Of a DNA stretch of 64,000 bases, positions 12,045-40,263 are shown piece after piece. The stretch lies in contig KN832902.1 in the NCBI GenBank assembly GCA_000827325.1, positions 1-64,000 of the forward strand. Reading direction: 5' to 3'. This stretch comes from Oidiodendron maius Zn. Lineage: Eukaryota; Ascomycota; Leotiomycetes; Myxotrichaceae. The notes beneath the pieces were generated by a model. It saw only the letters and a list, made by a program, of their open reading frames with translations, had not been told where the DNA came from and did not search any database. The position numbers and the translations under genes were made by a program. Within the stretch, counting starts at the first letter, position 1. Each line of letters starts with the position of its first letter.

Positions 12045-15000
12045 ATGGATCCCCTCAGCGCAACCGCAAGCGTCATCGCTGTCCTTCAGCTGTCCTCCGA
12101 AGTCATCAAATACATCAACTCGGCCAGTGGCGCAACGAAAGAGAGAAAACGCCTTCGCGAGGAGCTGCGAGCGTGCGAAAATATCCTCCAACAACTCAAA
12201 GACGAGGCCGATGATTCAGAAGGGGGCAAGCTGTGGTCGGAGACTATCAAAGCCCTCGAGGCTCCAGAGGCACCACTGGGTCGACTTTGGATTGCCTTAC
12301 GCAAGATCGAGGCTAGGCTCCAGTCTAAAGATGGAATAAGGAAGACATTGGGTAGCGTAGAATGGCCTTTTCACGAGAAAGGGATAAAAGAGATCTATAC
12401 AACAATTGAGCGCGAAAAGTCTCTGCTGGAGCTAGCTTTGGCCAACAACTCCCGAAAGCTGCTCCAAGAGATTAAGAGGACTTCGGACGAGAATAAGAGG
12501 CAGCTTGTGAAGCTGATCCAGGTGATCAAGAGAAGTTCAAATGAAAGTGAGGGCCAATTTTCGGAGCTAAAATATGACCTAGCGATCCTTCAGGATTCGC
12601 AAGCAGGCCTGCACAATGGCCTAGATCGACTTAATCGCCGCCAAGAAAATCGAAATCTCCTTGAGCAGCGATTGACTATTCTCAATTGGCTGACGCCAAT
12701 CGATTACGTCGCACAACAAAGCGACTTCATCAATCGGAGACAGGCAGGAACTGGTCAATGGCTCCTGGACTCGCTGGAGTTCAAGACATGGGTGGAGGCT
12801 GAAAAGCAGACATTATTCTGCCCAGGCATACCCGGAGCCGGAAAGACAATCATCACGTCCATTGTGATTGAAGAGCTCCTCTCTCACGTCGAAAACAACC
12901 AGAGCATGGGTGTCGCATACCTCTACTGCGACTTCCGGCGGCAAGATGAACAGAAGGCCGAAGATCTTCTCGTGAGTCTACTAAAACAGCTGACTCAAGA
13001 TTGGCCTTCGCTACCGAAGTCCGTGAAATCTCTCTACGACAATCACCAAAAAAGACATACGCGACCATCGTTTAATGAAATCTCGAGAACTCTCCAATCC
13101 ATAGCCTCCTTATATTCTCGAATCTTCATTATAGTCGACGCGCTTGATGAATGCCAACTAGCCGGCGGCTGTCGAGCAAAATTTTTGTCAGAAATCTTCA
13201 ACCTTCAGGCCGAGTGTGGACTCAGCCTCTTTACAACTTCGAGATTCATCCCAGAGATCATGGAGAGATTTAAAAAGAGCCTATCATTAGAGATCCGGGC
13301 CAGTGAACAAGACGTGCGAAGATATGTAGACGGCCATATATCGCACTTACCCTCTTTTATCGGACGCTGCCCGGATCTGCAAGAGGAAGTCAAGACTGGG
13401 ATCGTCAAGGTTGTTGATGGCATGTATGCGGCTCTTGTGAATTAACGGAAATGTACTGACCGTTTTAGGTTTTTGCTTGCACAGCTCCATCTTGAGTCCT
13501 TGGTTGGGAAGAGATCCGTTAAAGCAGTTCGAGCTGCTTTGACAAGACTGCCTACTGGTTCCAAAGCGTACGACCGTGCATACAACGACGCAATGGAGCG
13601 AATCGAAGGCCAGGTTACTGATCAGGAAGAGCTTGCCAAGCAGGTCCTGTCATGGATCACCCGTGCAAAGAGGCAATTGACTACGTCGGAACTTCATCAC
13701 GCGCTTGCTGTGGAAGCCGGCGAACAAGAGCTTGACGAAGACAACCTTCCATATATCGAAGACATGATCTCGTTGTGTGCTGGATTGGTTACCGTTGACA
13801 AGGAAAGCGGTGTGATAAGGCTAGTCCACTACACGACGCAGGACTTCTTTATGCGAACGTGGAAACAGTGGTTCCCGAATTCAGAGACCGATATCACGAT
13901 GATCTGCAGTACGTACCTTTCATTTAAGGTATTTCAAAATGGACCATGCAAAACGGACAAGGAGTTTGAAGAGCGGTTACGATCTAATCGGCTATATAAC
14001 TACGCGGCACAAAACTGGGGATTACACGCTCAACAAGTTCAAAAGCCTTGCCAAGAAGTTATTAACTTCTTAAAGTCCGGTGGTAACGTCGAAGCGTCAA
14101 GTCAAGCATTATTTGTAAACAAACAAGTAATAATAGCTGGTGAGGGCTACAATGCAGGGTTTCCAAGGCATATGACAGGACTTCACTTAGCAGCATACTT
14201 TGGAGTCGACTACGCTGCGCAACTCTTACTCGATAATATTAGCCCGAATATGAAGGATGGATATGGTCGAACACCGCTCTCCTATGCTGCTGACAAAGGG
14301 CATTATGCCTTTATCCAAATACTACTGGAAGCGCGAGCGGACACGGAGCTGAAGGACAGAGATTATCGGACGCCGGTATCTTATTCTGCCTCAAATGGCC
14401 ATGAAGATGCCATGAAGCTGCTGCTTGAGAAGGGCAGGGTTGATATCGACTCGAGCGATATCCGGGGGCGAACCCCACTAGCGTGGGCTGCCATGAATGG
14501 GCATGAAGCAATCGTAAAACTGCTGCTTGAGACGGGCAAAGTTGATTTTGACTCAAAGGATGAGGAAGGGCGAACCCCACTAGCATGGGCTGCCATGAAC
14601 GGCCACGAAACAGTCGTGGAGTTATTGTTGGCAACCAAAAAAGTGGATGCTGACTCAGTAACGACCAATTATTACCAAGGTGAGATGCCATTATCTCTTG
14701 ACCTGAAAGAGCAATGGAGCTTACATGAAGTTGTTATTAGCGATGGGTCGGCCATGGGTCATTGGTGGCATTGATTCATTTCGGACGCCACTATCGTGGG
14801 CTGCTGAGAACGGCCATAGGATTATTGTAAAGCTCCTGCTTAAGACGGGCAAGGTGGATGTTGACTCGAGGGATGAATACGGGCGAACGCCACTATCGTG
14901 GGCCGCCGAGAAAGGTCATGGAGCGGTCGTGAAGCTACTTTTGGAGACTGGTAAGGTTGACGCCGACTCGAAATCCACTGGTAGGTTTAGCGCAGGTCGG

Positions 15001-15522
15001 ACACCCCTATCATTCGCTGCTGGAAATGGCCATGAAGCAGTCGTACGTCAGCTACTGAAGACGGGTAAAGTTGATGCCGACTCGAAGAATACTGGTGTAT
15101 ATCTTCCTGGTCGGACGCCCCTATCATGGGCTGCTGAAAATGGAGAAGAAGCAGTAGTAAAGATATTGCTAGAAATAGGACATGTCAATGTCGACTCGAT
15201 GTCAACTGGCGAGTATGTGCCTGATTTAGCTCCCTTATATTGGCTTGGGGAGGGCCATAGAGCAGTCGTTGAGTCTGAGACCACTGGAGAGTATTTCGTG
15301 GGCCGGACGCCGCTATCGTGGGCTGCTGAACGTGGGCACGAGCCTATCGTCCAACTATTGCTTAATAAGGGAGCCAATGCCGACTCGAAGGATAAGGATG
15401 GCTGGACACCACTGTCTTGGGCAACCAGGAATGGGCATGAGGCTGTCATCAAGCTGCTGCTCGCAACACCAGCATCGAGGCTGACTGAAAGACTACTAGG
15501 TGAACATGCGGGTCCGACCTAA
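12045..15522 (+). CDS. NLR-type STAND protein: Helo_like_N, NACHT, about 12 ankyrin repeats
   Basis: The N-terminus ([20 protein letters not shown]) matches the Helo-like N-terminal domain of fungal STAND proteins. A coiled helical region follows, then a NACHT with P-loop GIPGAGKT at 12829-12852 and Walker [11 protein letters not shown]. An intron at 13424-13468 (GTATGC..TTTTAG, branch TACTGAC) joins DG-M to FLLAQLHL exactly. The second half is an array of ~33-residue ankyrin repeats ([20 protein letters not shown] type) from ~14180 to 15480, several nearly alike. Between ~14680 and 14740 the frame changes by one: either a 61-nt intron (14680-14740, GTGAGA..ATTAG), which fits the frame, or an indel in one repeat, since [13 protein letters not shown] in the new frame begins before that acceptor. 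Such proteins are thought to sense non-self through the repeats and act through the N-terminal domain. Frame-dependent readings at the repeat array need cDNA support. Confidence 0.8.
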
Positions 15523-15774: not shown

Positions 15775-16719
15775 TTACCCTTCGTACCTTGGGGATGGGG
15801 ACTGGAACGACTGAGCGGCAGCTCTGTCCCAAGCTCGACACGGGCTGTTCTGGAAACTTCTACATGCGACGCCACCCCATGCCGCGCCACACCACACTTC
15901 TTTGCGCCACACTTTCCCGTGACATAAAAAGTGATAATAAACTACGATTAGCGTGGTATAAAAGGCTAAAGGGAGAACATGATCCTCTGCATCAATCCCA
16001 ACTGCAATAAGAAGCGTAAGGTTATATCGAGATCGAGTATGAGTACCATCAAAGGCATAAAAGGGTCGTAGAGTCTGGATTCCTGTATTAATCGGTCCAA
16101 ATACCACAAAAAGGGCCTCAAAATTCCCCTCTTCAGATGCCTGCCATGTAGCATAAGAGCTATCCCCTTGAGCTATCTTAACTTGCTCAATCCAAGAGGG
16201 TATTAGCTTAAAGCTAGCACCTTCATCACCATCAAGGGTATCCCAAAGTCGCTCTCTTGCCCTCCATGCCGAGATATATGGCACACCTGGAAGTTTATGA
16301 TATATTGCAGCTCGTTGACGTAGCTCTTTTGGTTTGATATGTCGATTAATCGTAACATCTCGTTCAATAAGGCTTGCAAGATACCAAGAAGAGTGCCGCT
16401 GCTTAAATCCACTATGAGTAGAAGGAGGGCAGTCATGGGGAGTATATATAATAATGCCGAAAAATCCATCCTTTTGCCGTGCAATTCGAATATAGAAGGA
16501 GCAGGTCTTTGAAAGGCAGTGGAGGTGAAGTCGTGTCTTATTATTATGTGTAGAAGGAGCCCAAGACTCGCCGCGATCAAGGATCCAGGTCTTTACTGCT
16601 TTCTTTGCATCAGTAATACTAGCCCAAGACTTAGACGTAATATCACTAGCAGCTGGAAAGGACCACTGCTCTTCAATTGACTCCATACTGTAGAAAAGGT
16701 GGTGCAAAAGGTGTTGCAA
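15775..16719 (-). mobile_element. Truncated MULE transposase (N-terminal part)
   Basis: The frame runs leftwards from 16719. It has a FAR1/WRKY-GCM1-like DNA-binding region (WASITDAKKAVKTWILDRGE, then LHCLSKTCSFYIRIARQKDG), a linker typical of fungal MULEs (IKPKELRQRAAIYHKLPG), and the start of the MULE catalytic domain (FYAFDGTHTRSRYNLTLLIA, with the first catalytic Asp). After EDHVLPLAFYT similarity stops and a short unrelated tail runs to the stop. About 310 residues remain, where full transposases have 600 or more, and the second and third catalytic acids are missing, so it cannot transpose on its own. It lies just after the NLR, in the opposite orientation. Confidence 0.75.
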
Positions 16720-18328: not shown

Positions 18329-18819
18329 CTATAGCTCCTCGTCTTCGAAATCCAATTCTACTTTGTACAACATCCCCTTCCGCCTCTGCTGAATTTTCTC
18401 TTTCCATCTCTCTTTCCATCTCACTTTCCATCTCTCTTTCCATCTCTCTATCCAGAGCTGCTTTAGTTCCGGCTCCTCATCAGCCTGCGTTCGGATACTG
18501 ACAGCGCCATCCTGCGGCAGAGGCTGCTGCAAGATCATGCCCCAACCCTGACGACTCGTCTACTTGTGGTAGAGCCGCGCCGAGGAACTCCGTCACGCAG
18601 GACTCGATAGGTATGTTCATGTCGAAGGAGTAGTCCATTTTCAAGCACGCGGGGTTGTTCGCTAGCTGGCACAAAGGCTACCTGTAAGAGACAGAAAAAA
18701 GGTGGGCTGGTAGAGAGGTGCATACTACTGTCTACTCTCATCGCGCGGAGGGTGAAATACGCAACTAGCGCACTGAAGATGCCGGTGATGGAGCTAAGGA
18801 GGCCGAAAACAAGAGCCAT
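18329..18819 (-). pseudogene. Copy A of a repeated tail family: membrane N-terminus plus WKER-repeat tail
   Basis: Exon 1 (18736-18819) encodes a hydrophobic segment, MALVFGLLSSITGIFSALVA, consistent with one membrane helix. A 54-nt intron (18682-18735, GTAGAC..TTACAG, in-frame length) leads to VAFVPASEQPRVLENGLLL. Near 18535 the frame must shift to continue as PQDGAVSIRTQADEEPELKQ, then four WK(E/V)(R/K) units and the tail QQRRKGMLYKVELDFEDEEL. The tail matches those of 24246-26131 (QRRRGMLHKVELDFEEEL) and 23930-24140. Family unrecognised. The frame slip makes this copy probably non-functional unless an unseen intron covers it. Confidence 0.5.
18398..18452 (-). repeat. 12-bp minisatellite coding WKER units
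   Basis: On the plus strand CTCTTTCCATCT repeats about 4.5 times with one variant unit. Read on the minus strand it codes (W-K-E/V-R), giving a strongly charged, probably helical stretch. The related copies near 24090-24110 and 24455-24480 have only one unit, so the expansion is specific to copy A. Confidence 0.7.
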
Positions 18820-19157
18820 TATCGTATCTGAGGAAGCTAGGAGAGCTGGTTAGTTTATTGCGGGAGTCTATTCAGAGATAACTGATACTCGTACCCATCT
18901 TCATAAAACGCCTCCAGGTAAAGGTACTTCCGTCGCTGTGTAGGGGCCTCTGTTCCAACGTATAAACTGAACTCAAAGATCTAAAGAGTTGTTCTTAAGA
19001 TATTTCCAATTCGCTTTCATGTTGAGGAAAACTTATAAAGTTTTTGTGTTAGCCATGGAGTCGAGAGGTTTGGTGGTGAAGGGGCAGCGATTAAATGTAT
19101 GTCGGGCGGGGCGGAATAGGGACGCCAAGCGTGGTTTCGTCAAGGGTATACAAATCC
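18820..19157. other. No gene seen
   Basis: The 338 bases upstream of copy A contain no recognisable coding segment; they probably hold its former promoter. Confidence 0.35.
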
Positions 19158-19714
19158 TGGGTATTGATACGTTCCCCCACCCCCATTTGTTAAACACCAG
19201 CACAATTTAAGCCTATTTGGGACTAGATAAAGGCGGTCAGACTAAATCCCTATATTTGGTAGGGATCACCACTAAAAAAAGTACCTTTGATGCTAAGTGT
19301 ATGTGTATCGCAATATATGGTAACTCAACCACTACAGCTGAATTGCTACGCTGCTCCTACCACCTTGCATATGAGATACTTTAATTTGTTAGTAAGTTCC
19401 TGCAAAATCCAGGTACCTTAACAGATCCCTTACCTAGCAAATGGCCTCAATTGTAAATCAGCCTTCTCAGGCATGGCCGGTATCTCAGCAGTCTGATATT
19501 AGCCCTGGAACTCAGTCGGATTGGATACCAGGCACTCAATACACCATACACCACTTTCAGTAGTTAGATAATATCTCGGTTCTCAGCAATATTACAAAGT
19601 GACATCTTTTACTATACAAAAAAGGAGTGTTAGGAGGTACCGGCAGAAATTCCCAAATAGGCTTAAATGGTGGTGGTGTTTAACAAAGGGGGTGGTGGAA
19701 CGTATCGATACCTC
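19158..19714. mobile_element. Inverted-repeat DNA element (~557 bp, ~60-bp TIRs)
   Basis: The left arm 19158-19222 (GGTATTGATACG.. to ..TTTAAGCCTATTTGGG) and the right arm 19653-19714 are inverted copies with roughly 85-90% identity by eye. The interior has a short ATG frame (MASIVNQPSQAWPVSQQSD...) ending after ~40 codons, so no transposase is present. Target-site duplication is not clear. A related right-arm sequence occurs alone at 33815-33890. Class unknown; plausibly a non-autonomous DNA transposon. Confidence 0.7.
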
Positions 19715-19798
19715 GCCCCACACTCGTGATTCTGAGAGGGACCAGCTCACTGATCTGACCAGCTTACTGATCAACTACGTTAAAGTAATAGCACTAGG

Positions 19799-19918
19799 GG
19801 GTGCTTACGCTTACCTTAATAAAGTAGTACACAACAAACATCGATTTTACGCACCCTATAGTTATCGCGTTTCTAATGTTTGTTGTATACTGCTTCATTA
19901 GGGTAAGCGTAAGCACCC
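19799..19918. mobile_element. 120-bp fold-back MITE
   Basis: The arms GGGTGCTTACGCTTACC... and its reverse complement at the right end pair over ~44 bp with a few mismatches, leaving a ~30-bp loop, so the whole unit folds into one hairpin. There is no coding capacity. It directly abuts the next element at 19919. Confidence 0.75.
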
Positions 19919-20260
19919 ACCCGATTTTACCGCAAAAATCACGATTTTAAAATTATAATAACTTAACCATTTCTCAATATGTTAATGTAAAATTAAAAAT
20001 CCCAGTTATTTACCTATATGCAATTAATATTTATACTCAGCTTATTTATCCATTAAGTATTTATTAAGTTATATAGGTTAAGGTTAAATTTAAGGGCCAA
20101 AATTTAATACCTTAAAAGTTTATAGATTTATCTCCTTTAAATTCCTAAATATTAGTTATATATAGGTAAAAAGCCAGGAATTTTAATTTTATATTAAAAT
20201 ATTAAGAAATGGTTAAGTTATTGCAGTTTTAAAATCGTGGTTTTTGCGGCAAAATTGGGT
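19919..20260. mobile_element. 342-bp AT-rich MITE
   Basis: The ends ACCCGATTTTACCGCAAAAA and its inverted counterpart (..GCGGCAAAATTGGGT) pair over ~60 bp with scattered, mostly C/T and G/A, differences. The interior is extremely AT-rich and has no ORF. The right end touches the second 43-bp direct repeat exactly. Confidence 0.75.
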
Positions 20261-20303
20261 GACCAGCTCACTGATCTGACCAGCTTACTGATCAACTACG
20301 TTA

Positions 20304-21341
20304 CTTCACCGCTGTACCTCCGTAGGTAAGCATAGTGTGAGCACGTGACACACGCAGGGCAGAACGTAAGCAAGGGCAGAATGCACGAATGTACTGCTGT
20401 CAATAAATGGCATAAAGCAGGTGCAGAACTTTTGAGCAAGTGATGACATAAGAAGCATGAAGGTAAGTTAGAGGCTGTTGGTCTCACGTGATATTTAGTG
20501 GCGCCGCCTTCCTGAAACTGCAATCGATTTTATCAGCCAACAGATGTGGCTGCAGACGCATGTACAAAGCCACGTGCATAGAGTACACGGAACTGTCTCC
20601 TAGCGCCTCGACGGCCCACAAATTGAAGAAGTCGGCGACGAAGCCACGACCTGCGGGGACCGCTGATAGACTCGTGGACTTCTTGAATCACACTGCCGGT
20701 CAGCATGGGCCGACCCTCTGGCGCAGGATAGCGGTTGGGCATGACAAAACAGCCTTTCATGTCTTTGTTAAGTGTCTTCTTAAACTACTACTTTATTCAT
20801 AAATTTGTTTTGTGTTTTAGAGGCTATGGAAGTAATAGAAGCAACAAAGGAGCCGGAAAACCCGTCTCGGTGAGGATAATGGATTTGTTTGCAACGCATT
20901 TGATTAATTGAAGGGTTGGCCTTCGAGATTAAGAGATGGCATTGTGTATCCTTGTTGGCTTACTGTTTTATTTTTATTCCTATTGTCCGTTGAGGCGCGT
21001 AGACATCGCAAACGGGTACAGTACAAAGAGCGTCTAGGATTGCCTTCGAGTATTCTCCATCCCATGTCTATCGGTCTTTGCGACGTGCAACAAAAGCTTT
21101 GACCCCAGCCGTGATTGGTCTGCTCGGACGGTATTAAATGCCGCCATTATTTCCTGCTTCGCAACAAAGATATCTGACACCATTGGCCCAGTACGTGTTG
21201 GTAGTTCATGAAAAGGAAATTTAAACTGACGTGGTACCATATCTCTTGAGTAATCTCGTTTACGCCTTCCTATGTGCCTGCCTTCAGCTTGTTTTTAGAG
21301 CTAGCTTCTTGGCTAATAACAATTCATATTATTGGATATTA
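20304..21341. other. No gene recognised
   Basis: The longest frame (20488-20802, plus) gives a 104-residue protein without recognisable motifs or similarity to its surroundings. The remainder is stop-rich. Confidence 0.35.
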
Positions 21342-21343
21342 TA

Positions 21344-21585
21344 CGGAGGTCGCGGTCAAAAGTCCTGAGACGCTAGTTACACCGCCTTTTGTACAGTACT
21401 CCGCCAAGGTTCGCTTAGCAGTCGCCTAGCAACCAGATCTCACTGTAAAATTAGTGGGCTACAGGCTTATATTCCCTAATTTTATAGCTCTATAGCCTAT
21501 AGTGACTACTAAATAGCCCCCATAGCTTGAATTCTGCCGTATTGTGGCGTTTTTAGCGTCTCAGGACTTTTGACCGCGACCTCCG
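21344..21585. mobile_element. 242-bp MITE with perfect 32-bp TIRs, TA target sites
   Basis: The left end CGGAGGTCGCGGTCAAAAGT continues CCTGAGACGCTA, and the right end is its exact reverse complement over 32 bp. Both ends are flanked by TA (21342-21343 and 21586-21587), consistent with a Tc1/mariner-class non-autonomous element. Interior ~180 bp without ORF. Perfect TIRs suggest it is young. Confidence 0.85.
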
Positions 21586-21587
21586 TA

Positions 21588-22107
21588 TATGATATCGCAT
21601 TTGAACGGTCCTGCTTCAGGGGCGAGAGTCTAATGATTCCCGAATCACTATACGGCGCTTCACGACATCATCGGACCTAACCGCTGCACCTGGCCCAGCA
21701 AATAAATTGTATTCCGGGGTGTCAGCTCACACGCGCCTCTGATTCTATCTATCTATCTATGGCATCGCACTGATCAATCCGCCAGTTGTCCCCGCACCAG
21801 GCAGCGTCGATGCAGAAGTTGCGTTAAGACCGGATTGTGTTCTTTTCATCAGCTTCCTGGACTTGTCAAGTTTGGAGCAGGGATACACGTGGGTCTGCAG
21901 GTCGCGTTAAGGGTTGAGACGCGTACGCGTGTGGAAGATCTCGTAAATTCGCGTAAAATGGTCTAGTGTGCCGCTCCTGGGCTTAGCACGTCTTCGACTT
22001 GTGTTGGAGCCGGAGTTGCGTAAAGAACACATCATCAGTAACTGATCGTCGGTGTGATATACAATATACTCAATTGACCGGACTCATTTCACTTGTCACT
22101 CATTACA
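21588..22107. other. Upstream region of the orphan gene
   Basis: No coding segment. It contains a short TATC microsatellite near 21745-21760 and a CACGTG E-box-like palindrome near 21886. It is likely to include the promoter of the gene starting at 22108. Confidence 0.4.
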
Positions 22108-23048
22108 ATGCTATCGAACTGTAGCCGTTGGAACCCGGGTCAGTGAGTATCCGCCTTCTCATAGGGCTTGCACCTCTGCTCACCACCCTTCAGGCAAGAG
22201 GGTTCTCAAGCAGCGTCTCCCAGCCGCAAGCGACCGCGAAACATAGGCCCAGATAACGATCTGCCACGAGTGGCTGCATGCGAACAGGATAGATCGAAGC
22301 CTTGTGCCAGGGATATAAGAGCGAAGAACAAGCTAGACATCGACGGCTCATGGGAAGTCTCCGAACGTGCCACAACGAGTTTAAAGCAAGTAGAAAAGGT
22401 GAGAGTCGTTCCATCTCCGTAGTTCTTTTGGAGAATATGCTCGTCTGGATTCTACGCCTGACTAGAGACAGGCGGCTTTGAGATGTATAGGGGCAGGTGC
22501 AGTTATAGCGCTGACATTCTATCTAGCACCTCGCCATATTGTATGGTGCCGCGTATCTGACCGAACAGCAATATGAAAGTATCTCCGCTATTCTCAAGAA
22601 AGATGGCCCCTCTTTGGCCAACAATGGTTCACCTTATTCGCTTGCTCATAGTCAACACGCAGCCCAAGCGATTCCGGGCCACCATGATCCTGGACCTGAC
22701 CAATACCCTTGGCTTCCCACCGCCGGACTTGCAAGTTCTGTTCATCTGCCACTATCGCCAGCTATATCCAAGAGGTCAGAGGATAGCATGGGAACATCTT
22801 CCGCAGCAACTGTAACGGACGGTAGAGCCTCTTCACGCCTGGAAAGCACGTGCGAACCAGAAGGCAAACGACAGCCTCCTACACGCCTAGAGGCTGTCAA
22901 GGTCGAGCTGAAACCAGATATTTCTGGGGCTATCGATGCTCTCTTAGCTGAGACTTCCAGTGCAGCTGATAACCATGGCCCCTTACTGGTGGGAATGGCC
23001 GATCCAGTCCCCATACTAGTTTCCAACAATATAAACTTGGTAAATTAA
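22108..23048 (+). CDS. Hypothetical protein, 253 aa, three exons
   Basis: ATG at 22108. Exon 1 is 22108-22142, intron 22143-22193 (GTGAGT..CTTCAG), exon 2 22194-22398, intron 22399-22526 (GTGAGA..ATCTAG with a CTGAC branch site), exon 3 22527-23048. All phases agree and give an uninterrupted 253-residue protein. It has an early basic run SPSRKRPR that could be a nuclear localisation signal, a helical stretch across the second intron (SLKQVEKHLAILYGAAYLTE, YESISAILKK), then a Ser/Pro-rich, probably disordered region and a C-terminal SGAIDALLAETSSAAD. I do not recognise the family. Clean splice signals in a region full of transposons make it a good candidate for a real lineage-specific gene. 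Confidence 0.6.
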
Positions 23049-23929
23049 TACAAATTGCGTATCTCATGGCTATATGTGCTAACTCGGTGGGTTAGGCGCG
23101 ATCTGGGGGTGATTTAGAAGACCATTATTTTTGGCCAACGCGACCAGCGAGTTATAAATCACTTACTTGCTACTACTGGTTTAGAGGGACATGTCGAAAA
23201 AGCTCAAAAGAGTGCAGATTCGCACATGAGAATACGGGTCGGATTGCTAGACCGCCTAAACGGCAATATGCTAGTCTTTGCTAACATGTGGTATCGGTGA
23301 CGTCCTCCAAATTATGCTCGGTATCTTGCTCTTTTGGCCGGCTATATCCATACCATTTATATAACGGTAATAAGAAAATGACGTGAAAGAAGTCAATTAT
23401 TGCCCGCGGGCGGAAGGGGACATGATGGAAGGCGACGGCTATTCTCAAGAATGAATAGATACTAGGTATTCCGCGAAATAAGACTGTGTGGGTAGGTAAG
23501 ACACACGCAATAGAATGGATGGCTGAAAAGAAGTCGCACCCGTTGTAGCATCAAAGTCTGTCAGCTCCCATACGATTGCCTCTCTCACTAAGGTACCTCG
23601 ACACGAAGGATGCCCTTCCCCTAATGGGCGCCCGTGCTCTCAGTCGGAGAAAAGACTGGCTTATTTTGGTACGCGAAAACACCAAAAAGTCCGCCACTCA
23701 ATCCGGTATCTCTCGCCCTCCCACAATTCAAATTTAATACCGCTTTCAGCTTTACTTCTCAAGAAGCTGCTAAACCGGAATATTAAAAATATTATTATTT
23801 GTCAATTGTTTGTTGGTAATAACTTGGATTTATCGGAGCCGTGGAGTTGAAGACATCCCGATGACATAACTTCACGTGATCCATAAGTTAACGAGTTCTC
23901 GGTTTCGTCCTTCCAATTCTATAGCTCCT
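23049..23929. other. No gene seen
   Basis: Stop-rich DNA between the orphan gene and the tail-family relics; no inverted-repeat element was noticed. Confidence 0.4.
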
Positions 23930-24140
23930 CGTCTACAAAATCTAATTCTATCTTGTGCAACATTCCTCTACGCCTCTGCTGAATCTCCTCGGGTGTTAAC
24001 TTGCTCTTCTTTCGCTGTTCCGACTTCTCCAAAGCCTACTAGCTTGCGGCCGCGGCCTTTGACCTTCAGCTTCCTTTTGTCGCCTCCCTCTTTCCATCTC
24101 TCTATCCACAGCTGCTTTAGCCCACTACCATGCGAGATGA
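23930..24140 (-). pseudogene. Copy B of the tail family: C-terminal scrap
   Basis: On the minus strand the segment reads LTPEEIQQRRRGMLHKIELD then FVDEEL, and in a shifted frame GLKQLWIERWKEGG further upstream. These match the tails of copies A and C. No N-terminal part is found and the frames do not join, so this is a decayed fragment lying ~100 bp from copy C in the same orientation. Confidence 0.55.
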
Positions 24141-24245
24141 CTACTCATGAAGTTGGAGTTACAGCGTGGTCACTACTTTAGTATAGTGGTTTGTTACTGA
24201 AATTGGCTCTTCACGACTAATTGCCGTCAGCGTCGCCATCCTCTC

Positions 24246-26131
24246 CTACAGTTCCTCTTCGAAATCCAATTCTACCTTGTGCAACATTCCCCTCCTCCTC
24301 TGAGCCAACTCCTCTGGTGTTAATTGGCTTGCCCTTCGTTGTTTCGCCTTCTCTAAAATCCCCACTCGCTTATGATGTCGTTTAGCCTTTACCTTCCCCC
24401 CCACAGCCTTCTTTTGCTCCACCATCTTGGTCTGCCCGAGCACCTCTAACTCTCTTTCCATGCGTTGCTGCCTCCATTTCTCTCCAATCCCTACTAATGT
24501 GCGCCGTCGACTCGGTAGCCGAAACCCCCCTACCATCCTCTTCTTCCCCGTCTCCTGTCTCACTGCCTTTTCTGGCGCCGTATTCATTCTCTTCAAACTC
24601 GGCTCCTGGACCACCTGCTTTCGAATTTGAATAGTATCTTCATTTTGTAAGAGTCCTTCCCTCAATATACCACCACTTCTTTTCATTCGCTTCATGTCTG
24701 GCTCATTATCCTCCGGCATTCGTATAAAAACAGTATCCTCGCGTTCTAGAGGCCGTTTCTTTGGCTGAGCTGCCTGAACGTGGAATGGCTCCCCACTTCG
24801 CCCCTGGTTCATATCTCCATCTAAGACTATGTCGGGGTCCTCGACCCCCGCTCCATTTATAGGAGATAAATCTGGTTGGTAGACCGCGTCATTGACAGGG
24901 GTTTCCGATGGAGCGGAATGGACTAAGCTAAGTTCTCTGGCAGGAGCGATAAAGTCTCGAGTCGAATCTTGTGAAGAAGCCACTTTCGAACCCGGCGATA
25001 CCGATAAGCCCTCTTCTGCAGTCTGGTCTTCTATGATCTTAGCATCAATACCGGACACCTCTGGAGTATCGACTGAATTCGAAGTGCCATTCTCCAATAG
25101 TAATGTGGTGATATATACCTATGGTGGTCTTTATGTTGAGCATCAATGGTAAGCTGCTCGTTCTCTTGGTGTCCTGTAAAACGAGCCACTGTCAATGCTG
25201 AGTTGTGGTATACTTGATCGGAATCAGAGCTAGGCATTAGCCCCTCATCAAGGGAGTCACTATCAAAAAGCTCTTCGTATCCGGGAGAGTCCCCAGCATC
25301 AGGTGGAGCGGGATCCATTAGACCAGGAGAAGCTCTCATTGATATGAGTTTCCTCCCTTTCTGATCTTCCGTCCACTGAGCTCTAAAGCTGTCGAGCTGG
25401 CTCTTCGGCACGACCCAAACAGCCATATCTTCTGCGGCTTTCCAAGCTGTTCCCAGACCAACCTCGCTCATTTTATGGGTCGCAATTATGAAGTTAAAGC
25501 CATAGGACATAAACTGTCCCTCTTCCTCTGACAGGGTGTGCTGAGTCTGGTAGACAAGAACTTTTCGGTCGGTATGATCCCCGTACAGTAAGAAACAAGC
25601 CTGCGAACTCTCCAGCACCCCCCAGCTTGGGGTTTGCTGCTCTCTTTCACACTCAGCTAGGCTGTATGTTTTGTCAAGTGTTTTCTCCTTTTCTATCCAG
25701 CTTGCAGATAATATCCATTCAGTAGCGCTGTCTAGCGAGGCACCTTTAACCAGAGCTTGCTGTATTTGGTCCGAAGAGGCAGTCTGGGCAATAAGAAATC
25801 TTTCTTTGTTTTGCTTCCCCTTGCCTTTTATAGCACCACGCTGGGACCAATGCTGGCTGCGGCCTTGCAAAAAGGTTTCCACAACCTTCCCATGCATGCC
25901 ACGCCTCCGTACAGAGGCTTCGCCAACTCTTATGGTTGCATTGCTTCTCCTTTTAAGATGGGATTGCATAACAGCTGCACCGTTCTCCATCCACCAAATC
26001 CCTTTATCTCTCGGCATAACGCAATATTCAGCGTTGAAGGATTTGGTAAGATAATCAATAATCTTGTCCTCTCGGACGGTTCGAAACATATACCCATCTT
26101 TCCTAACCCAGACCCAGCCTTTCCGACCCAT
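24246..26131 (-). CDS. Copy C of the tail family: longest member, ~630 aa, one frame change
   Basis: Starts MGRKGWVWVRKDGYMF at 26131 and is open for 366 codons. Features: NAEYCVMPRDKGIWWMENG, a basic region (SHLKRRSNATIRVGEASVRRR), WILSASWIEKEKTLD, and a possible compact domain with SSQACFLLYGDHTDRKVLVY, FNFIIATHKMSEVGLG and DMAVWVVPKSQLDSFRAQW. An acidic stretch (ELFDSDSLDEG) follows. Near 25100 the frame shifts by one base to LENGTSNSVDTPEVS and continues with SPGSKVASSQDS, repeated R/K-rich blocks (EDTVFIRMPEDNEPDMKRMK, EDTIQIRKQVVQEPSLKRMN), and the tail TPEELAQRRRGMLHKVELDF ending EEEL at 24246. No intron bridging the shift was found. I do not recognise the family; presence of several copies suggests a multicopy or mobile origin. 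Confidence 0.55.
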
Positions 26132-26143
26132 CAGATATTCTTC

Positions 26144-26262
26144 CTAGAGAACTGTAGGAAGACTTTAAATACAAGCCCCTTTCTAGTGATGGGCCCTAGA
26201 GGTCCTTCTCCTCTGCCAGCCTTCTCCCTGTCGTAGATGAAGAGGAAGAGTTATAATAATAG
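26144..26262 (-). repeat. 5' leader of copy C, repeated at 40146-40263
   Basis: Beginning ~12 bases upstream of the ATG at 26131, about 120 bases (minus strand TATTATTATAACTCTTCCTC.. to ..CTACAGTTCTCTAG) recur almost unchanged at 40146-40263. The segment includes a TATTTAAA-like box, so it may be promoter and 5' UTR of the family. Confidence 0.75.
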
Positions 26263-38250: not shown

Positions 38251-40158
38251 ATGTCAAATCCACTCTTGCTCCCGGAAATTGTTGGATTGGTCGTCGACAA
38301 TGTTCACATGGTCCCGGACCTTTTGAGCTGTGCCTGTGTGAACAGCACTTGGAGCGTGGCAGCTTTAAAAAGGCTCTACAATGGCTCCTTGAACGACATG
38401 CAGTTCCGAACGCCTGACATCGGATCACTCAATTGCCTCTTCGTGGCATCACGAGAGCGCTTCACCCGAAATATGGGCTTTGTGAAGCATCTTCTCCTTT
38501 CTCCAGAGAGTCCCGCAATTGATGAAGTAGCGCTGCCGAATACTTCTAGGCTTATATGCATCGAGAAGTGTCGCGCGATGCGCCACCGTCAGTCTGCTGA
38601 GCTCCTTCTGCAGCCGCAAGGAGAGGGTCTTGCAAGTTTCACAATCCCCTTCGAGATCGAGGGCCAAGATTGGTCGCTCATTTCTGACCTCCTTCTCACT
38701 CGAACGGTTGAGTTTTTGGCTATTGATGATTTCTACTGCGGGCTTTTGATGGCCGGCTCCAATTATTCTCAAGGACTGGCCACCCCTGCTGTGAGTTTTA
38801 TCCGCTCCACGTTCCCAATAAGCCATGTCTGACCCCGATAGGTTAAGTTCTCAAACCTCAAAGCGCTCACAATCTACAAATCAGGAAGTGGCCAAGATAT
38901 TGATAAGCTTTGTCGATTGCTTAAATGTTGTGATTTGCAATTTTTCCACCTTGAAGAACCGAGTGGAAGTGGTAGCCTAACCCAATCCGACACTATGAAG
39001 CTCTTATCGTGCCTTCGACAACAAGAAAACCTCGTGGCGTTGGCGCTGATCATCCCCCGTTGTATCCCTCTCGTAGGATCGGCTTCTACGACGTTGACGT
39101 GCGAGGAACAAGGGGGCCCATGGCCGATGCTAATGGCATTGTACCTTGGGGTCTGGGACCAACACTGGTTGGAGCAACTCCCAAAGTTCGAGAAGCTTCA
39201 GATCCTCAGCCTGCAAAAGTTCACGCCCAACACACCCAGTATCAACCAGGACGCAATTGAAAAGATTGCGAAGTGCCAATATCTGCGGGTCATCGATATT
39301 GTTTTCCAAGAGCTTGAAGACGTGGAATCGCTCCTTGATATCACCCGTAGCTGCCCGCTTTTACAAAAGTTTAGCGTCAAGCTCTCAGGCTTCAGGGGGG
39401 AACCGGAGCGCGCGGAAGCCCTTTGTATTGGTCTGTTGCGTGCCCTACCTCGCCTGGAGCACTTTGAACTTGACTTGAGGTTCCGGATGGACGGTGCAAG
39501 ACTTCAGGACCTCGCACGTCGCTGCCCAAGACTAACCGTTCTTGCGCTGCCTCGGACTCGATTATGCCTGTCTCTCGCGCTGTTGACCAAAGCTCATCGT
39601 TTCTGGCAGTTAGAGACCATGCACTTCGCAGAAATATTCTTCGAGGATCCACGGCGCTTGATGCAATGGGACAAAATCCGAGGCCTTGCAGAGGAGTGGC
39701 GCAGGATATTCCCAAAGCTTCGAGGGATGCCATGTCCAGCGGATGTCTACTCTCGGTATATGCAGGAAGATGACTTGACCGAAGAATGGGAAAGAGACGG
39801 GCCCAGTGGAAGCGCTGAAGGCGAGATGTCAGATTTTGGCGAAGAATCAGAAGGAGACATGGTCAGTGTGAGTACTGATGAAGAGATGTCACTAAGTGAA
39901 CCCGGGCTTGACTTTGACGAGAACGAGTCTGACTGGTTTATTTTGCGGACAAAACTCTGGAAGATTCTTGGTTACCAAAAACACCTGCTCATCCGTGATA
40001 GCATCCAAAATATGTGGCAAACGAATCTGGAAATTGAGACAATTGGTTGGCCTGTAGTGCCTTTGATGGCGTTTTCCGACCCGGACGCGCACTCCACAAC
40101 CGCTAAATCCCACTGCGGATACCTGTACGACCCTGTTTATATCTCTAGAGAACTGTAG
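38251..40158 (+). CDS. F-box/LRR-like protein, 618 aa, two exons, end supplied by an inserted repeat
   Basis: Exon 1 38251-38790, intron 38791-38841 (GTGAGT..CGATAG, branch CTGAC), exon 2 38842-40158. The N-terminus (LLLPEIVGLVVDNVHMVPDL, LSCACVNSTWSVAALKRLY) is an F-box. The middle has leucine-rich spacing (LEKLQILSLQKF-like, LRVIDIVFQELEDVESLLDI, LPRLEHFELDLRF, CPRLTVLALPRTRL), consistent with an irregular LRR fold. The C-terminal ~130 residues are acidic (EGEMSDFGEESEGDM) and end YDPVYISREL. The last four codons and the TAG lie in the dispersed repeat that starts at 40146, so the native C-terminus has been replaced. Likely an SCF substrate adaptor. Confidence 0.75.
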
Positions 40159-40263
40159 GAAGACTTTTAAATACAACCCCCCTTCTAGTGATGGGCTTTA
40201 GAGGTCCTTCTCCTCTGCCAGCCTTCTCCCTGTCGTAGATGAAGAGGAAGAGTTATAATAATA
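40146..40263 (-). repeat. Second copy of the tail-family 5' leader
   Basis: Near-identical to 26144-26262 in the same orientation, from CTAGAGAACTGTAGGAAGAC to GAGTTATAATAATA, with a few substitutions and a one-base indel. The ORF that follows this leader at 26 kb is absent here. It lies across the 3' end of the F-box gene. Confidence 0.8.

Follow-up and report, generated by a model that had tools for sequence, protein, structure and literature searches.

Three stretches on the minus strand of contig C33 end in nearly the same short protein tail, and all of them lie within the 64,000-nucleotide window analysed in this study (C33:1-64000, from a genome of 58 contigs and 45.9 Mb, all of which was searched). 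The question raised by this locus is whether the tail is a module passed between genes or the surviving end of one gene. The three same-strand tails noticed in the first-pass annotation are real: copy A ends at about 18329-18406, copy B at 23919-24032 and copy C at 24246-24356, with expectation (E) values of 9.2e-18 to 6.0e-6. Overall, they probably belong to a small, old and fast-evolving gene family which is being lost, and in which copy C alone looks intact while copies A and B and eight other pieces are truncated or stop-ridden remnants.

The family, correctly suspected to be multicopy, comprises 11 pieces on six contigs: three each on C33 and C5, two on C12, and one each on C21, C22 and C1. 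When the 37-residue tail of copy B was searched against the whole genome (E up to 10), at least seven matches were obtained, namely copy B itself (9.2e-18), copy C (2.9e-11), C21 (5.0e-10), copy A (6.0e-6), C12 (4.6e-5), C5:1348665 (0.0225) and C5:924913 (0.0419). The last two are also supported by DNA matches within a limited group of loci chosen beforehand. A search with the C12 piece added C12:37380 (E 4.2e-7), C5:2256879 (0.015) and C22:89122 (0.42), the last of which also has DNA matches to copy A and a C5 piece, and the body of copy C added C1:6550216 (6.4e-8). C12:37380 is part of a 219-bp duplicate, 96% identical and about 17 kb apart on C12, from within a family remnant (L013 4555-4773, L031 3235-3453). 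Stops or frameshifts occur in copy B, C12:54700, C12:37380, C1, C5:1348665, C5:2256879 and C22.

The tail had been taken as the only part common to copies with different N-termini, but copies A and C also have an upstream motif in common. This motif, PLPxEDxVxIRxQAxEEPExKR, is found in copies A and C and in C12, repeat-motif pieces upstream of the tail occur in C, C12, A, C5 and C22, and the order of motif and then tail is the same in C, C12 and A. The KRMK/KRMN blocks of copy C align to the same region of C12 (E 8.9e-5). Outside the tail, divergence was rapid: C and C12 are 24% identical over 214 columns of exon 2. The first exon is 28% identical over 117 columns to C1:6550216, a remnant with two TAG codons; residues 1-171 of copy C had no other match in the genome.

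The tail is the slowest-evolving part of the protein and is under protein-level constraint. Across 21 pairs of seven tails, the ratio of nonsynonymous to synonymous differences per site (pN/pS) was 0-0.43 and pS was 0.47-1.18, and pairwise differences in the tail core were distributed over the three codon positions as 63/22/115. In these comparisons the rows end at the DF of the tail, and the C12 letters ahead of its frameshift were left out. In the seven aligned copies, DNA similarity gives out at the stop codon or immediately ahead of it; the TAG stop is kept in five of them, the exceptions being C12, which reads TGG, and C21. From the stop-bounded similarity and the pN/pS values, we infer an order of events in which genes first diverged under selection on their protein and only afterwards broke up, the pieces being their ends. 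The tail resembles a shared module because it is both the slowest-evolving and the last part of the protein, and hence is still recognisable.

Copy C consists of two minus-strand open reading frames (ORFs) in differing frames, at 26131-25031 (366 residues) and 25097-24246 (283 residues). From its sequence, it reads best as a single two-exon gene (26131-24246) of 306 + 290 = 596 residues, in which a putative 95-nt, phase-0 intron with GT...AG ends (25213-25119) would join the two ORFs; GCTCAAC near the end of this intron is presumably a branch-like motif. No extra 5' exon was found upstream by simple splice rules. The first-pass annotation had described a body of about 370 residues with KRMK/KRMN blocks, joined to the tail, but in the two-exon model the body is exon 1, and the blocks and tail fall in exon 2. 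The gene is presumably expressed, and its protein would run from a Trp-rich body through an acidic linker and the repeated EDxVxIR...KR motif to a basic helix, with a short helix at the C-terminus. The open runs of 370 and 290 codons compare with a median of 118 and a maximum of 270 in shuffles of the same 1886 bases (n = 300). In both exons the in-frame codon score is the best of six frames (0.111 in exon 1 and 0.117 in exon 2), above the best-frame scores of three intergenic controls (0.085, 0.063 and 0.079). A single-sequence structure model of the last 134 residues has two helices, the long basic one and then the tail helix; that of exon 1 was unusable, with a mean predicted local distance difference test (pLDDT) of 33.6.

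Copy A is what is left of the 3' end of another member of the copy C family. Its WKER expansion is real and is a tandem repeat of a 12-bp unit (4.8 copies, 18397-18454), and it retains the motif ILQQPLPQDGAVSIRTQADEEPELKQL, which has matches in C5 (60%, E 0.0019) and C12 (54%, E 0.021). The proposed joining of its tail to a membrane N-terminus was not borne out. The leader ORF (18819-18535) stops at TGA 18537-18535, and the tail ORF has its ATG at 18538 in another frame; the two have only ATGA in common. The leader is instead a repeat of about 560 bp, also present at C14:465013-465570 (87%) and C16:351950-352515 (86%), sites at which the genome search with the copy B tail gave no match; its hydrophobic stretch MALVFGLLSSITGIFSALVAYFTLRAMR has one residue different in each of these two copies. 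DNA similarity of copy A to the C5 and C22 pieces reaches 18531 and 18536, and leader similarity begins at 18539. A rearrangement probably set the family remnant next to this unrelated repeat, which would account for the differing N-terminus. On C14 and C16 the leader repeat extends some 94 bp beyond its limit beside copy A (L048 4920-5578, L049 2444-3112), and the acceptor site needed for an open second exon varies between copies.

Copy B was rightly described as a tail only. It is a 3' remnant interrupted by stops, with one TGA and two TAG codons in the part that matches copy C, and it has about two units of the WKER-type 12-bp repeat.

Table 1. Features of the three copies and adjoining repeats, in window coordinates
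Feature	Position	Strand	Basis
Copy A family remnant: motif 18452-18538, expanded WKER repeat 18397-18454, tail	18329..18538	-	Tail search, DNA matches, repeat and motif searches
Unrelated leader repeat adjoining copy A (MALVFGLLSS...)	18539..19100	-	Copies on C14 and C16
Copy B: tail 23919-24032 and stretch resembling the copy A WKER repeat 24085-24120, stops between	23919..24120	-	Tail search, translated match, repeat search
Copy C conserved tail, predicted helix	24252..24317	-	Tail search, pN/pS, structure model
Copy C predicted long basic helix	24327..24488	-	Single-sequence model, mean pLDDT 74.4, predicted template modelling score (pTM) 0.27
Copy C repeat motif, EDTVFIR...KRMK and EDTIQIR...KRMN	24582..24755	-	Like pieces in C12, C5, C22 and copy A
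Copy C exon 2, 290 codons and stop: linker, motif, basic stretch, tail	24246..25118	-	Open run and translation
Copy C predicted intron, 95 nt, phase 0, GTATAC...CATAG	25119..25213	-	Inferred from sequence
Copy C exon 1, Trp-rich body and start of acidic linker, 306 codons	25214..26131	-	Open run of 370 codons; remnant at C1:6550216
Duplicated segment 12 bp upstream of the copy C ATG, 96% identical to 40145-40263	26144..26261	+	Genome search

If the tail were mobile or modular, it would be either a short C-terminal cassette or a transposable-element 3' end that is copied onto different N-termini, and the copies would be 5'-truncated insertions. The seven tails do have only their 3' part in common, with similarity sharply bounded at the stop codon, and there are short duplications of high identity in the vicinity, namely a 118-119-bp segment and a 219-bp segment on C12, each 96% identical, and the leader repeat. 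However, the substitutions between tails are typical of a selected protein and not of neutral insertions, and four of the pieces (C12:37380, C5:2256879, C22 and C1) are not tails. No terminal repeats, as expected of a transposable element, were seen at the copy borders, the inverted-repeat pairs that enclose copies being short and off those borders; inspection by eye of the seven aligned tails showed neither poly-A nor a common 3' flank. Both exons of copy C were without a match to any Pfam family up to E 10, and thus without a transposase or reverse transcriptase domain. The suggestion of a modular, perhaps mobile family is not supported, since the N-terminus of copy A belongs to another repeat in another frame, copy B is truncated, and copies A and C and the C12 piece keep the same order. 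Mobility is considered an unlikely explanation.

It is similarly improbable that copy C is a pseudogene or a chance pair of ORFs and that the whole family is dead in this genome. Such a view could draw on the frame change between the ORFs, the duplicated segment 12 bp before the ATG and how weakly the first half of exon 1 scores for codons, but the open runs exceed all 300 shuffles, the predicted intron has canonical ends and the right phase, and both exons have relatives elsewhere in the genome. Very improbable indeed is a set of three functional genes, A, B and C, whose bodies differ but which share a C-terminal signal (e.g. a nuclear or docking peptide): the protein-level constraint on the tail and the open tail and leader ORFs of copy A would suit this, but stops lie directly upstream of the copy B tail, and the copy A leader is out of frame and present elsewhere without the tail.

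Several observations weigh against a decaying family with one intact member. Three remnants (A, C21 and C5:924913) have no stop inside the matched piece, and six inverted-repeat pairs (21-26 nt, 74-86% complementary), none at copy borders, enclose at least one copy. The tail comparisons are short (9-32 codons), non-independent and inclusive of pseudogenes, with synonymous sites near saturation. The codon score of the first half of exon 1 alone is 0.070, no better than the intergenic controls. In addition, the duplicated segment lies 12 bp from the copy C ATG, so that rearrangements do reach the family and copy C may lack its true 5' end. This 118-119-bp segment was found by genome search in two places only, the second of which spans the stop codon of a leucine-rich repeat (LRR)-like ORF (38917-40158); no terminal inverted repeat is apparent at it.

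The evidence on repeat-induced point mutation (RIP), for which the indices TA/AT and (CA+TG)/(AC+GT) are expected to be raised and lowered, respectively, in comparison with the flanks, points both ways. In favour of decay, two remnants have RIP-like values, 1.18/1.06 in C1 (flanks 0.87/1.23) and 1.44/0.94 in C5:1348665 (flanks 0.79/1.23). The indices were 1.33/1.22 in copy B and 1.15/1.07 in C12, both of these without a flank control. Against it, the RIP-like signal is absent in copy A (0.47/2.50), copy C (0.78/1.35) and C5:924913 (0.86/1.26). The family resembles RIP-degraded duplicated fungal genes (e.g. PMC3017866) in its dispersed, diverged and stop-ridden copies, with TpA/ApT raised in some remnants. 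It differs from them in the mildness of its RIP-like indices, in their absence from the three pieces just named, and in that one member looks intact.

Similarity outside the genome itself was sought in Pfam, PDB, PHROGs and in viral and prokaryotic contigs, and the body of copy C is, as first reported, unrecognised, in the limited sense that Pfam, PDB and PHROGs gave no credible match. Two outcomes had been named beforehand as counting against an unrecognised family, and neither was seen: no known family was matched, nor did the tail prove to be a low-complexity motif in unrelated genes. The best PDB match was ribosomal S11 for the 366-residue ORF (E 0.71), a profile of copy C and C1 reaching E 1.5; in PHROGs, the best values were 0.079 for exon 2 and 0.34 for the exon 1 ORF. 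When relatives of the 366-residue ORF were sought, three stretches in viral contigs and 35 in prokaryotic genome contigs matched the pattern, and none was confirmed. The string QRRRGMLHK had no match in a literature search. DUF7941 (PF25613) was rejected, since one 111-residue body piece scored 10.9 bits (E 0.31; cut-off 27 bits), and longer copy C pieces and the whole exon gave no match to it. Other matches of pieces below the Pfam cut-off were taken as chance: zf_C2H2_10 (E 0.041), Endonuc_subdom (E 0.059, first 102 residues) and FRG1 (E 0.35, C12 piece).

The stretch preceding the copy C tail contains 32% K+R and the linker 19% D+E, a composition that fits a nuclear protein. It is possible, though not the likelier outcome, that the copy C protein works as a basic factor, probably in the nucleus, with a conserved contact made through its last helix. 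More doubtful is the wider proposal of an undescribed fungal protein family whose body fold is unrecognised and of which copy C is the last member still working; the protein would then be a basic nuclear factor that docks through its conserved C-terminal helix TPEELAQRRRGMLHKVELDFEEEL, a part strongly constrained while the rest diverges.

The window also contains HET, NACHT/ankyrin, FAA hydrolase, glyoxalase and NAD-glutamate dehydrogenase domains, which, together with intron-like breaks, point to a filamentous fungus. The NACHT/ankyrin (12045-14774) and HET (2055-2576) genes are neighbours of the family in the window and are likewise of kinds that evolve fast in fungi; unlike them, copy C has none of their domains. 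The NACHT/NPHP3_N and ankyrin gene, at 12045-15522, is broken across several ORFs, and a weak similarity to MULE transposase (E 0.0088, 16.9 bits; cut-off 27.6) lies at 15775-16719. Away from the tails, there is a perfect 36-bp inverted repeat (21340-21375/21554-21589), MITE-like (miniature inverted-repeat transposable element) with 178 bp between its arms, and there are longer inverted repeats at 19160-20303; those at 19740-20303 lie between identical 43-bp direct repeats (19740-19782 and 20261-20303) and may form a small composite element. A subtelomeric placement was considered, the pieces on C33, C12 and C1 and one on C5 being at most 60 kb from contig ends, and was dropped; contig ends are unreadable as telomeres because exact TTAGGGx4 is absent from the assembly.

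The family-decay reading corrects two possible errors of automated annotation, namely the splitting of copy C in two and the fusion of the copy A leader with its tail. It also indicates that a slow-evolving C-terminus can make decayed gene copies resemble a mobile module. What remains is otherwise ordinary, a small family made up of a single orphan gene, apparently intact, and its decayed relatives.

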